From contig NZ_RXOM01000003.1 in NCBI RefSeq assembly GCF_008692195.1, positions 62,001 to 126,000 on the forward strand: DNA of 64,000 bases, written 5' to 3'. This DNA comes from Salegentibacter sp. R32 (GTDB taxonomy: Bacteria > Bacteroidota > Bacteroidia > Flavobacteriales > Flavobacteriaceae). The translations under genes were made by a program, and so were the position numbers. This document shows, piece by piece, positions 15,230-19,961 of the stretch; positions within the stretch are counted from its first letter, which is position 1; each line of letters opens with the position of its first letter. Under the pieces are notes generated by a model, which worked only from the letters and a program-made list of their open reading frames with translations, was not told the DNA's origin and ran no database searches.

Positions 15230-16480
15230 TTATAAGTAGGTTAATTTTCTCCATACATATTCCAAAGGACCTTGTTGATGATATTTTAACCAAAGTAGGG
15301 TGCAGATAATTTGAATTATCCAAATGGAGAGGACAAAACCTATTAATTGAAACCTTGAAAAGCTATTGTGCAGTCCCAATCCGTAACCATAAAATAAAAA
15401 ACCTAAGAGAATGCTCTGGAAGATATAATTAGATAAAGCCGTTCTGCCTATTTTAGAAAGGACTTTCAATTTTATATTTTTCAAATAGCATTGATAAACC
15501 CCGTTAAAAATCAGTACATAAGCAGTTCCCATTAATTCTTTTGGGAAGGTAAATAATAGGGCTTTAAGGGTACTTAGGTTAGCTATATGGTCTTCGTACG
15601 TCCAATGGTAATAACGATAATAATTAATGACTAAAGCTATCGTGAATACAGACAAGGAAATAGGCCAATAATATTTCCACACGCTATAATTTGAAAAAAT
15701 ACCTGATCTGTACAATAACATTCCTATCATCATCACGATTAAGGTAGATAAGACTAAAGATTGGTAATAAAATTCTCCCTTGTGTACTTTTAGGTGTTCA
15801 TAGGAATGGACCAGCCCTTGCCAATAGGTAGGTTTAGGAATTTCTACCTCTTCTGAAAAATTAGGGGTTTTTTGAGAATACCTTTTCTCCCAACCTAAAA
15901 TCAGTTGTTGTTCACTTTCCGTTCTGTTAAACTTATCTTTTTCAAGTGCCGTTGTGTACTTAGCATAAGTTTCTTGCCTGCTGGAGATATTTTCATACGA
16001 TTTTATTAATAATAAAGAAGCTAATCCCATGATAATTACTACTAAAGTGCGGCTTTTCATAGAGCGAAAGGGCAATAACAATAAACCACAGATAGCATAA
16101 TGATAGAGAATATCACCATCCCATATAAAGTAGGCGTGAACAATCCCTATAACAAACAGCCACAGCAAGCGCCGGGTATAAATATCCATGGCCTTTACCG
16201 CGTTGCTTTTTTGTTGAATACGTTCTATAAAAATCACAAAACCTACCCCAAACAATAAAGCAAACATAGTATAAAATTTCCCTTGAGTTAAAAAATAGAC
16301 CCAAAAACGGGTGTCGTGGTCAATTGTCTCTAGAAAGCCATATTGCCAAGAACTCCAAGGGTTAGGATACACAAAAGATTCGATATTAATAAATAGAATA
16401 CCCAAAATAGCAATTCCCCGTAAAAAATCTAAAGAAGGGATCCGTTCTAAAATAGTCGTAGGTTGTACTTTGCTGCTCAT
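15230..16480 (-). CDS. DUF418 family membrane protein
   Basis: A 416-residue polytopic membrane protein of the YeiB/DUF418 family. The N terminus RIPSLDFLRGIAILGILFIN is the acyltransferase-3-like opening shared by this family. A C-terminal DUF418 domain follows, with IGRTALSNYIFQSILLGFLFY and a final GPLEYVWRKLTY. Function is unknown. The start is ATG at 16480; a TTG one codon upstream is ignored. It is the third of three minus-strand genes (serine hydrolase, amidohydrolase, DUF418), each separated by a non-coding gap. Confidence 0.9.
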   Translation of the reverse strand: MSSKVQPTTILERIPSLDFLRGIAILGILFINIESFVYPNPWSSWQYGFLETIDHDTRFWVYFLTQGKFYTMFALLFGVGFVIFIERIQQKSNAVKAMDIYTRRLLWLFVIGIVHAYFIWDGDILYHYAICGLLLLPFRSMKSRTLVVIIMGLASLLLIKSYENISSRQETYAKYTTALEKDKFNRTESEQQLILGWEKRYSQKTPNFSEEVEIPKPTYWQGLVHSYEHLKVHKGEFYYQSLVLSTLIVMMIGMLLYRSGIFSNYSVWKYYWPISLSVFTIALVINYYRYYHWTYEDHIANLSTLKALLFTFPKELMGTAYVLIFNGVYQCYLKNIKLKVLSKIGRTALSNYIFQSILLGFLFYGYGLGLHNSFSRFQLIGFVLSIWIIQIICTLLWLKYHQQGPLEYVWRKLTYL

Positions 16481-16535
16481 CAATGAATGTTAATAGATGT
16501 AATTTAATCGGTTAAATCTTAAAAAGTGGGGAAGT

Positions 16536-17972
16536 CTATTCTAGCCCAAATTTGTCTTTTACGGTACTTAAAATTTGTTGAGGGTCATAGCCGTAGCCAT
16601 CTTTAAAAACATACTCAATATTTCTTATACTATTTTCAAGGCTTCCTTCCAAAATCACAAAATCGGCTTTTTTACCTTTTTCAATAGTTCCTATATCGGG
16701 ATTATCGAGCACCTGTGCGCCGTTACTGGTCATAATTTTAAGGGCTTCTTGCTTAGTAAATCCTGCTTCCCTAAGTAATTCAAAATTCCTTTGGTCTCCA
16801 TATCCCGGCAGTACGTGCCTACCGGCATCTACACCTGCGGTTAAAGTTCCTCCCATCTTATAAAACTGATATTCAAACTCCATAATACGTTTTAATCTTT
16901 TCAGCCTTATAGAATCAGGGGAAGATTGATGCTCATAGTTTTTTCTTCTTTCTTGATATTGCGAAACTAAATAAGGCGACATCGCTTCTAAGCTACGTTC
17001 ATCTGCAAAAGCACGTTCAGGAATACTTGCTTCGTAAATGGCTAGGGTAGAAGTTAAAAATGCCTGTTGGTCTATCATTAATTGTTGAAGTTTTTTTACT
17101 TCCGCACTGTTAATTTCCAATTCATCAATATACTCCCGAGAGCCATTACATATTCCCGGAGTTTTGTTTTTTCTGAAATCGCTGGTGCTGTTCAACCCGT
17201 GTTCAATACCATCAATTCCCATCTTGGTTGCTTCTTCAAAAGTAACTGAACAAAGATGACCGGTAACTTTAGCATTTTGTTGATGAGCTTCATCGATGAT
17301 GATTTGTAAATCTTCAGGCGAAACATTTCGATAGGCCTTGAACCAACGTACACCTTTTGCTGCCCAATATTGTATAGTGTCCCGAATGTGTTGCTCATTT
17401 TTGGGAATAATCAAGTTGGGGTTCCCGTTTATTCCGGTAAAATAAGGACCGCTGGTAATAATGTTGGGACCAATTGCGTTTCCCTTTTCAATTTGTTCCG
17501 CTAGTAAAACTTCCTGCTCAGGAGAAGCAGCTCCACAAGTTTGAATAGTGGTTACCCCAGAAGCCAGGTATAGTTTAGCGGCTGTCTCTCCCACAAATGG
17601 AAACCGTGGAATATGAAGGTGATTGTGTACACCTACAATACCAGGAATAATGGTTTTTCCTTTTGCATTCAACACCCGGGCATGGGAGGGGATTTTTATT
17701 TCTGAAGTTGAACCCATTTCATAAAAATGGCCATTAATGATAATAAGGGTTTGATCGTGTTTGGCCGCATTTCCTTTTCCATCAAAAATGGTCACATGGG
17801 TTAAGGCAAGGGTGTCTGATTTGTATTTTATGTATTTATGAAGGTTACGGTTTAGAGGAGGTCTGTTAGGGGTGAAAGTTGTGTTAGCAAAAAGAAGTTT
17901 ATCTTTATGGGAGGAAGTTTGCTTACAGCTACACACCGCTAAAATTAGAAATAGGAGGGTTAGTTTTTTCAA
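16536..17972 (-). CDS. Amidohydrolase-family lipoprotein
   Basis: Probable periplasm-facing metal-dependent hydrolase of the imidazolonepropionase-like group, some members of which are Xaa-Pro dipeptidases. A lipoprotein signal (KKLTLLFLILAV, then CSC) is followed by a composite beta domain, then the metal-binding GVHNHLHIP. Downstream are a His in VTGHLCS, a His in GIDGIEHGL, and an Asp in TLTAGVDAGRHVLPG. GKKADFVILEGS near the C terminus is typical. I place the start at TTG 17972, which gives a clean signal peptide; the frame extends to 18071, but that codon is the -33 element of the likely promoter. GTG 17999 is an alternative. Substrate unknown. Confidence 0.85.
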   Translation of the reverse strand: MKKLTLLFLILAVCSCKQTSSHKDKLLFANTTFTPNRPPLNRNLHKYIKYKSDTLALTHVTIFDGKGNAAKHDQTLIIINGHFYEMGSTSEIKIPSHARVLNAKGKTIIPGIVGVHNHLHIPRFPFVGETAAKLYLASGVTTIQTCGAASPEQEVLLAEQIEKGNAIGPNIITSGPYFTGINGNPNLIIPKNEQHIRDTIQYWAAKGVRWFKAYRNVSPEDLQIIIDEAHQQNAKVTGHLCSVTFEEATKMGIDGIEHGLNSTSDFRKNKTPGICNGSREYIDELEINSAEVKKLQQLMIDQQAFLTSTLAIYEASIPERAFADERSLEAMSPYLVSQYQERRKNYEHQSSPDSIRLKRLKRIMEFEYQFYKMGGTLTAGVDAGRHVLPGYGDQRNFELLREAGFTKQEALKIMTSNGAQVLDNPDIGTIEKGKKADFVILEGSLENSIRNIEYVFKDGYGYDPQQILSTVKDKFGLE

Positions 17973-18043
17973 GTTGATGGGTTTACAGTTGGTAATCACA
18001 CTTTTCAATAACTTTAACGGATGATTAAATATTGTGTGAAGCA

Positions 18044-18071
18044 CAAAAATATAGTTTTCACCTTCACACAA
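18044..18071 (-). promoter_or_regulatory. Promoter of the amidohydrolase gene
   Basis: On the minus strand, TTG (18071-18069), a 17-bp spacer and TATTTTTG (18051-18044) match the Bacteroidota promoter. Transcription would start near 18037, upstream of the candidate GTG (17999) and TTG (17972) start codons, and this rules out translation from 18071. Confidence 0.6.
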
Positions 18072-18141: not shown

Positions 18142-19884
18142 CTACTTGTACGGTATCTCTTTAAACCAATCCCACGGCATATGATTAGGAGAAGTGGTAT
18201 ATTCCAATAGCTCTTTAAAGATAATACCTGTGTTTTCTGAATTGCTCATAACTAAAACCCCTTTCCCGGATTTCGGAAAAACAATAGAGTAGTGGTGAAA
18301 GCCTGAACCACGGCCTTCTTTAAAATAACCTGTTCCGTATGGGGTCGCTAAATATCCCCAACCCAAGCCATAACCTAGTTGAATGTCTTTGTATTCTTCA
18401 GCAGCCGCTTTTTTATCTTCAATTACTTTAGATAATGCATAGATATTAGTCTGTGGACTAAAAATCTCTTGATAAGATTTTTCACTAATAATTTCTTGCT
18501 GAAGTACGGCGGTTAAAAAGCTCACGTAATCACCAAACGTAGTTTCTAAGGTACTGCCGGCTCTGGGTTCATTGTCTTTATCTTTTTGAAAAACGCCTCC
18601 GTTTTTTGCATAACTCATGGCATAATCGTTTTCAAACCTAGGTTTCCATTCATAAGCAGAATTGTTCATTTGCAAAGGTTTAAAAATAATTTCTTGGGCA
18701 AGTTGCTCCAATCCTTTACCAGTAAGCTTTTCTAACACCACTTGTAAGTAAACAAAACCTTCCCCACTGTAATTATACTTTTCACCGGGAGGGGTAAAAA
18801 CCTGTAATTTGTGTTCTCGCGACCTCCAGTTCTGAAATCCCGAAGTATGGTTTAAACACATTCTGGCAGTTATTTTATGGTATAGACTATCAGTTTTTAA
18901 GTCAGAATAATCATCGTGCCAACGGGTTAAAAGTTCATATTCATATATTTTTTTAGGAAGATAAGATTCCAAAGGCGTATCTAAGTCAATTACTTTGTCT
19001 TCTACTAATTTCATCACAATAACACTAAATACGGCTTTACTGAGAGAAGCCCCATAAATGTTGGTCGTAGCTGTAAGTTTTAATTTCTCCTGAAAATTCT
19101 TGTATCCAAAAATATGTTGATAAACAGGTTGCTGATTATCAAAAATAGCAATCGCCAAGCCTTCAACATGGGCACGCTGGGTTAATTCTTCTATTTTAAG
19201 GGAGATAGAATCCTTACTCACCGTATTACCGTCAATACGTTCTATGGCATTTGAGGGTGCAGAACAGTTCATACAAAGTAAGCCGGTGAACAGGACTACC
19301 ATCATTTTTGCCGTACTTTTTGGTTGATAACTTAAAAAAGGTATCGCTAAGGGATAATAGCATTTTTCCTTTTGAAGCACATAAACGATATTAAAAAGCA
19401 CGATAGCTACACAAATGGGTACGGTAGCAATAAATATAAAAAATCCCCATTTTTCGATGGTCATTAAACTTATAAATGATAACACCGCGAGGAGTAATGC
19501 CGTAATCTGAAAGTTAATCACCTTCACCCCGTGTTGGTGGTAAATAGGATTATCTTCCCGTTTATGAATCCATATAAAAAGGGGAAGCAATACATTACAG
19601 AAAGGTATAAACACCCCCAATAGAGGAGTCGCGTGAAGTAATAACAGCCATTTTTTCTTGATAGATTCCTCATTGGGATTAGCCAACGGCAGCAAATCGT
19701 TGACTTCAATACCTAAGGCAGCAGCCAGTAATTTTAATGTATTTAAATGAGGTTTCACTTCGGCCTTTTCTATACGTTGAATAGTCCTTACCGTCACCTC
19801 CGATTTTAAAGATAATTCTTCTTGAGATAAACCTTTACTTTTTCGTTGATAGTTGAGCCTTTCAGCAATTGATTGATTGTCCAT
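18142..19884 (-). CDS. XRE-type HTH / DUF4870 membrane / beta-lactamase-like serine hydrolase fusion
   Basis: A 580-residue three-part protein. Residues 7-64 form a Cro/CI-type HTH (GLSQEELSLKSEVTVRTIQR). Residues about 78-185 match DUF4870 (LLGVFIPFCNVLLPLFIWIHK, VINFQITALLL, YYPLAIPFLSY). Residues 193-212 are another hydrophobic segment, resembling a lipoprotein signal (MMVVLFTGLLCMNCSAP). Residues 230-575 are a class C beta-lactamase/DD-peptidase domain with the SxxK motif at Ser280-Lys283 and YSG at 372-374. HTH+DUF4870 proteins and serine-hydrolase lipoproteins are usually separate, so this looks like a gene fusion. If the first long hydrophobic stretch is a hairpin, five crossings would put the hydrolase outside. 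It could be a transmembrane regulator or a merged bifunctional gene. Confidence 0.88.
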   Translation of the reverse strand: MDNQSIAERLNYQRKSKGLSQEELSLKSEVTVRTIQRIEKAEVKPHLNTLKLLAAALGIEVNDLLPLANPNEESIKKKWLLLLHATPLLGVFIPFCNVLLPLFIWIHKREDNPIYHQHGVKVINFQITALLLAVLSFISLMTIEKWGFFIFIATVPICVAIVLFNIVYVLQKEKCYYPLAIPFLSYQPKSTAKMMVVLFTGLLCMNCSAPSNAIERIDGNTVSKDSISLKIEELTQRAHVEGLAIAIFDNQQPVYQHIFGYKNFQEKLKLTATTNIYGASLSKAVFSVIVMKLVEDKVIDLDTPLESYLPKKIYEYELLTRWHDDYSDLKTDSLYHKITARMCLNHTSGFQNWRSREHKLQVFTPPGEKYNYSGEGFVYLQVVLEKLTGKGLEQLAQEIIFKPLQMNNSAYEWKPRFENDYAMSYAKNGGVFQKDKDNEPRAGSTLETTFGDYVSFLTAVLQQEIISEKSYQEIFSPQTNIYALSKVIEDKKAAAEEYKDIQLGYGLGWGYLATPYGTGYFKEGRGSGFHHYSIVFPKSGKGVLVMSNSENTGIIFKELLEYTTSPNHMPWDWFKEIPYK

Positions 19885-19934
19885 AGGTTTTTATTTGATG
19901 AAGTAAAAGTACGCTATCTCCGTTAATTTTTACC

Positions 19935-19961
19935 TGACATATACGTGTCATGTATCTGTCA
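19935..19961. promoter_or_regulatory. Phased TGTCA half-site array upstream of the HTH-hydrolase fusion
   Basis: TGACA at 19935-19939 and TGTCA at 19946-19950 and 19957-19961 are spaced exactly 11 bp, one helical turn apart; the first pair forms an inverted repeat. The array is 51 bases before the start codon, just upstream of a -7-like TACTTTTA (19911-19904, minus strand). It is a plausible operator for the encoded XRE domain. Confidence 0.55.

Follow-up and report, generated by a model that had tools for sequence, protein, structure and literature searches.

The fused gene of the window (the whole 64,000-nucleotide stretch of DNA that was analysed) raises the question of whether a DNA-binding domain, a membrane module and a serine hydrolase encoded in a single frame act as one membrane-spanning protein, or are made together and then parted. 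An earlier note on this DNA had described a three-domain fusion in one gene of 580 residues and had proposed a membrane-tethered regulator carrying its own penicillin-binding-like sensor. We consider it fairly probable, from the comparison of sequences given below, that the gene is instead an auto-activating one-gene cassette, in which signal peptidase divides a polyprotein to give a regulator in the membrane and a serine hydrolase in the periplasm.

The Pfam scan of the fused protein found 8 families at E values up to 0.1. The HTH_3 match (5.3e-12, 46 bits against a curated cut-off of 23) places the N-terminal part among the XRE, or Cro/CI-type, HTH domains; DUF4870 (PF09685) was found at 4.5e-21, with 75.3 bits against a cut-off of 25, and PF00144 Beta-lactamase at 1.4e-42, with 146.5 bits against 27. 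The C-terminal half belongs to the S12 hydrolases by this domain, by its SxxK motif and by its fold (Table 1), while the PADLOC matches of the protein were confined to the HTH part. The three-domain fusion is thus borne out by Pfam and by an uninterrupted frame: the stop or frameshift between residues 185 and 200, which according to the note would have undone its claim, is absent from the ORF, and relatives match over nearly the full length. It had also stated that HTH-DUF4870 proteins end after YPhaIPFL, and five examples of standalone relatives in the close clade indeed break off right past YPLSIPFL.

Conservation was followed in 53 distinct fused proteins (60 sequences minus 7 duplicates; L040, which is not fused, was left out). 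Two shortened frames are counted among them, L035 (511 residues) and L115 (540 residues, disrupted start). The fused frames of L035 and L031 stop early, the latter at 555 residues, and are possibly broken or badly sequenced. In L115 the start of the HTH-coding part is disrupted in the record, with the -7 box and the operator intact.

Table 1. Position of the features of the fused gene and of its upstream region in the window.
Feature	Position	Strand	Basis
Operator TGACA-N6-TGACA-N6-TGTC, three half-sites, 11-bp period	19936..19961	-	Sequence conservation
-7 promoter box TACTTTTA, one mismatch to TAnnTTTG, 24 nt after the operator	19904..19911	-	Consensus from the excerpt of PMC9723704
Fused gene, HTH - DUF4870 - signal peptide - S12 serine hydrolase, 580 aa	18142..19884	-	ORF, Pfam, relatives
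Cro/CI-type HTH_3 domain, residues 12-63	19696..19851	-	Pfam
DUF4870 (HOTT, Tic20 superfamily) membrane module, residues 77-184	19333..19656	-	Pfam, AF2 helices
Predicted internal signal peptide, residues 186-207, lipobox-like Cys207 (codon 19264-19266)	19264..19329	-	Sequence rule and eye
S12 / PF00144 beta-lactamase-fold hydrolase, residues 231-551	18232..19194	-	Pfam, fold matches
SxxK motif, Ser280-Lys283	19036..19047	-	No variation in either residue across 38 aligned fused proteins, among them the window's
Second motif Y372-S373-G374, YSG for YxN	18763..18771	-	Invariant in 38 aligned fused proteins
Third motif K522-E-G (KxG)	18313..18321	-	K522 nearly invariant (at least 90%)

Operator and promoter of the fused gene

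An operator ahead of the gene had been announced in the earlier note. The site is present and conserved in the relatives, and its description is corrected here to three half-sites at a fixed distance of 24 nt from a -7 box. It is exact in 49 of the 53 regions upstream of fused genes and altered in one or two half-sites in the other four (L030, L036, L039 and L116). According to the excerpt of PMC9723704, the -7 box of sigma-A promoters in a flavobacterium has the consensus TAnnTTTG and lies at -12 to -5. This consensus stands exactly 24 nt past the operator in 51 of the 53 regions, and at the same place with one mismatch in the window and in L107. The positions of the half-sites and of the box reach about 2 bits, most spacer positions remain below 1 bit, and a box at exactly this distance was met in 3 of 7600 shuffled sequences (shuffles of 38 regions).

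With up to two mismatches allowed, the composite precedes the fused gene in each of the 22 genomes searched, which are 22 of the 23 with near full-length fusions (G259, the genome of L115, was left out). Genome-wide, there was a single extra match, in G139 and with two mismatches; the reversed control gave no match. The exact composite was found once in 60 relatives, at the fused gene of G022, this exact search having missed the own sites of the window and of G033, with one mismatch each. No wider regulon of the operator was found in these genome searches for the composite (22 fusion genomes and 60 relatives); the promoter of the fused gene is the one strong operator site per genome.

The TTTG expected in the -33 zone is present in 1 of 52 upstream regions. 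This rarity, combined with the constant 24-nt distance to the -7 box, makes the promoter on its own appear weak. With the box at its published place, -12 to -5, the palindromic pair would be centred near -43, the position of a class II activator, and the fixed spacing between operator and box suggests activation.

Many Cro/CI-type proteins are repressors, and the same polyprotein might carry an auto-repressor, whose HTH would block the -33 region until released by an inducer bound to DUF4870. The proximal half-site does end about where the -33 box is expected. Nevertheless, we regard auto-repression as unlikely, since the 24 nt to the -7 box are kept in all 53 regions, the -33 zone so seldom has a TTTG to be blocked, and distant HTH-DUF4870 genes keep a fixed spacing of their own. 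From 73 rows of such distant genes, 47 were taken (L176-L222, mostly in listing order and blind to neighbours) and 18 were not; the other 8, in the set L072-L091, had been partly chosen for adjacency and were not counted (4 of the 8 adjoin an S12 gene). A regulator ORF was held by 45 of the 47 sampled regions (46 ORFs). TGTC-type repeats of 11-bp period lie upstream in 34 of the 45 loci, compared with 0.1% in shuffles, and are found 35-36 nt from TAnnTTTG in 19 of these 34. Many of these have CCGTTATC or GACGC between the repeat and TAnnTTTG.

Downstream of the window's fused gene, on the same strand (-), lie an amidohydrolase gene (16536-18071) and a DUF418 gene (15230-16483). Neither clustered with the neighbours of 37 fused loci, and no conserved operon partner was found among the window's neighbours in the comparison of these loci. 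Other shared neighbours of the fused genes are confined to close relatives, save for an additional S12 gene, which lies no more than two genes away from the fused one in 8 of the 37 loci; this additional gene is diverged (19-42% identical) and occurs in L007, L009, L011, L012, L022, L023, L037 and L039.

The junction and the enzyme half

Residues 193-212 had been read as a leftover lipoprotein signal. The signal-like character of the segment stands; the word leftover does not, because cleavable-looking sites are kept in the fused proteins. A signal-peptidase-like site was found at the junction in 53 of 53, the script classes being corrected by eye: 43 have a lipobox-like Cys and 10 have, at the same place, a type-I-like [GASTVL]x[ASG]Q site (partly by eye). 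The strict script rule gave 42 lipobox-like and 10 type-I-like junctions with 1 unassigned. L031 was added by eye to the 42, and the classes were corrected by eye for L007, L015, L021, L028, L034, L035, L105, L114, L115 and L116. A positive n-region, a hydrophobic core and a lipobox Cys, as in lipoproteins, are combined in 43 of the 53, one of them by eye. In the 52 junctions assigned by the rule, at least two Lys or Arg precede the site and the hydrophobic core has 13-19 residues. As controls, the strict rule fires in 1 of the 53 DUF4870 regions of the same proteins, and recovers 12 of 15 SusD-like proteins of the window's genome (missing 3) and 22 of 26 separately encoded enzyme relatives (missing 4). 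Judged by eye, these 26 relatives start at the junction point with ordinary N-terminal signal peptides.

On the enzyme tree, the type of junction site needs at least four changes among the fused rows. Since a useless remnant would decay, a site that is kept and has been remade in a second form indicates that the 193-212 segment is maintained across the family and is not a remnant. The window's own protein passes the rule with a weak lipobox, C-M-N-C, having Asn at -1, where the SusD-like controls of its genome have Ser or Ala in 15 of 15 (by eye). The AF2 model presents a helix at residues 192-204 with low confidence, the pLDDT being 52-62 for residues 181-210.

According to the excerpt of PMC11628618, DUF4870 is a member of the HOTT/Tic20 superfamily, built from a reentrant helix, a charged loop and a further pair of helices. 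The AF2 helices of the fused protein (70-91, 96-108, 113-142, 146-172 and 192-204; mean pLDDT 80.8) agree in their DUF4870 part with the architecture given there, which would bring the end of DUF4870 to the same side as the HTH. With both of them inside, the signal peptide would have the normal orientation and the enzyme would be outside. The residues following Cys207, S-A-P-S-N, differ from the signal for surface export that the excerpt of PMC5080379 gives for lipoproteins of Bacteroidetes, so that the enzyme half of the window likely faces the periplasm.

Under the model of the earlier note, the protein would stay whole: a ligand would be sensed through acylation of the periplasmic penicillin-binding-like domain, and the signal would cross the membrane to reach the HTH. 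One frame does contain all the parts, the catalytic residues are conserved, the modelled DUF4870 helices plus one more would put the domain outside, and the weak lipobox of the window might stay uncut. We find this model quite unlikely, as the signal-peptidase-like sites are found in every fused protein, have changed type and seldom occur in the DUF4870 part of those chains; moreover, enzyme relatives are encoded as separate exported proteins, L040, a lipoprotein-like gene of its own, lies inside the fused clade, and other pairs of HTH-DUF4870 and S12 are two genes. The 53 junction sites and their changes of type fit a cut polyprotein better than a permanent tether. Of the tethered regulator-sensor, the fusion, its own operator and a layout unlike BlaR1/MecR1 are borne out, and the permanent tether is less well supported.

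In S12 (PF00144) serine hydrolases, the second motif is defined as YxN. All 38 aligned fused proteins have YSG in its place; among the 26 separately encoded relatives, YSN is found in 2 and YSGEG in 23. The SxxK pair, Ser280 and Lys283, is intact as noted before, both residues being invariant in the alignment. The NCBIfam bla_class_C model gave 41.8 bits against a cut-off of 415, and the fold matches (Foldseek, VIA-align) were S12 esterases, penicillin-binding homologues and AmpC, with nearly tied scores. Together, the YSG motif and the score far below the class C cut-off argue against an ordinary beta-lactamase and make the reading as a beta-lactam sensor less well supported; an esterase or D-peptidase is as likely.

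Cleavage would be needless if translation could also begin internally, at the former boundary between the genes, and so yield the enzyme separately; in the window two ATG codons do lie right at the signal peptide. However, an ATG within 14 codons past the DUF4870 end is present in only 12 of the 53 fused genes. This candidate was rejected on that count, and we hold it to be highly improbable.

Distribution and history of the fusion

The architecture, for which a joint search of the three domains was recommended earlier, recurs. The fused frame was found at 38 loci in a scan of public genomes, mostly of Flavobacteriaceae, and 37 of the 38 match over at least 550 residues with 53-71% identity (L035 is one of the 37, although its own frame stops at 511). 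Among 397 genomes sampled from the family, 22 carry a near full-length fusion (rows counted by hand), and none of the 15 other same-genus genomes examined does, so the distribution is patchy. The three-part fusion is an old gene family: relatives with two-gene arrangements do exist, but the 37 long matches and the 22 family genomes exclude a frameshift or misassembly of two neighbouring genes, whose probability we take as negligible. No publication on the HTH-DUF4870-S12 architecture was found in a literature search by titles and abstract starts, with subscription journals mostly outside its scope.

The trees are of a quick kind, in which a few enzyme rows retained some junction residues. The enzyme tree unites 50 of the fused rows in a single group, inside which the unfused L040 also falls, and places the fused L114, L115 and L116 among unfused genes; the fused or unfused label needs 5 changes, 4 of them forced by strongly supported branches. 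L040 (4914-6116, from a Saprospiraceae MAG) encodes its lipoprotein-like enzyme separately, possibly through un-fusion or transfer. In the regulator tree, 15 Rce1-linked standalone regulators form one clade (support 100) inside the fused ones, with joining branches of only 82-85, and the two-gene pairs L077 and L143 are the nearest outside neighbours, at a place where the program warns of long branches meeting. Rce1-like (CPBP) membrane genes lie 23-35 bp after standalone HTH-DUF4870 regulators with a similar operator in 12 of 12 loci (L163-L174). The regulator of L079 is likewise Rce1-linked; in L144 and L145 the Rce1-like gene is upstream instead.

A second kind of S12 enzyme is joined to the regulator type of the fused gene in L123 (221-2197), L124 (169-2133) and L175 (3034-4998), in frames of 654-658 residues. 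These fusions have a lipobox-like junction and a like operator, with a spacing of 24 nt except in L123, where it is 23 nt. In L175, a further S12 gene follows 53 bp after the fused one. An S12 gene comes directly after 7 of the 46 sampled distant HTH-DUF4870 ORFs, and 2 further S12 ORFs were found elsewhere among the 241 ORFs of these loci, with S12 and Rce1 profiles that were built from a few of these loci and only some of whose matches were confirmed with Pfam. Together with the 8 fused loci having an additional S12 gene and the second type of fusion, the link between regulator and S12 enzyme recurs, as gene pairs and as fusions. The window's genome has a second DUF4870 gene (L002 / L080, G000 contig C6), of 171 residues, which matches from the membrane part onward only; a 282-residue gene follows it after 4 bp.

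Proposed mechanism and comparison with known systems

In the auto-activating polyprotein that we favour, the Cro/CI-type HTH, anchored by DUF4870, would bind the sole good match of the genome, upstream of its own -7 box, and would act there in the manner of a class II activator. The growing polypeptide would enter Sec through the internal signal peptide, N-terminal side inside, and signal peptidase II would cut the junction, a step probably taken over by signal peptidase I in 10 of the 53 relatives. After the cut, the regulator would keep the short signal helix as a tail and remain in the inner membrane, and the S12 hydrolase would be freed on the periplasmic side, in the window as a lipoprotein; uncut, the short helix could still anchor the enzyme. 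As one polyprotein would be cut in two, we infer that activator and enzyme are made 1:1. We guess that an envelope-derived inducer is detected by DUF4870 and removed by the enzyme, by which a negative loop would be closed.

More tentatively, a transcription factor and an exported enzyme may be made here as one polyprotein and separated by signal peptidase, in such a way that export and the state of the regulator are coupled molecule by molecule, with the own gene as the one strong target. The regulator could then read whether its own enzyme was exported. Gene regulators and exported products are normally separate proteins; selection seems to have joined the two in many flavobacteria, yet to have kept the cutting site. 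If the cutting is true, the gene would combine switch and enzyme in a cassette that is compact and portable, would be a clear example of two working proteins made by signal peptidase from one regulatory gene, and would offer a first handle on what the DUF4870 (HOTT) regulators sense.

In the BlaR1/MecR1 systems, DNA binding is left to a separate repressor protein, BlaI or MecI, and an M56 protease carrying a PF00905-type sensor forms the membrane part. As in these, a penicillin-binding-type domain, here predicted to be outside, is genetically linked to a DNA-binding regulator; unlike them, the fused gene has HTH, DUF4870 and S12 enzyme in one chain, and neither M56 nor PF00905 is among the 8 families of the Pfam scan (E up to 0.1). 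The standalone HTH-DUF4870 (HOTT) regulators of Flavobacteriaceae have the same two domains. Those of the close clade have a similar operator, with a third half-site that is often TGGC or TGAC, and end after IPFL, whereas the distant ones have the TGTC-type repeats; they adjoin Rce1-like, S12 or other genes and carry no enzyme. Conversely, the 26 separately encoded S12 hydrolases of Bacteroidota, 33-59% identical to the enzyme half, have a signal peptide at the same place and no regulator part in the chain.

Two further systems each resemble one half of the proposed mechanism. FbcH, the cytochrome b/c1 precursor of Bradyrhizobium, combines a membrane protein with an exported one in a single chain, whose internal signal peptide is cut by signal peptidase; a literature search by titles and abstract starts found no paper on its processing. 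The fused protein has the same arrangement, with cleavage predicted from its sequence, but FbcH gives respiratory subunits and contains no transcription factor. Lambda CI at PRM is a class II auto-activator of the Cro/CI type, a role predicted for the fused gene from the geometry only, its palindromic pair being centred near -43; unlike the membrane-anchored regulator of the fused gene, lambda CI is a soluble phage protein.
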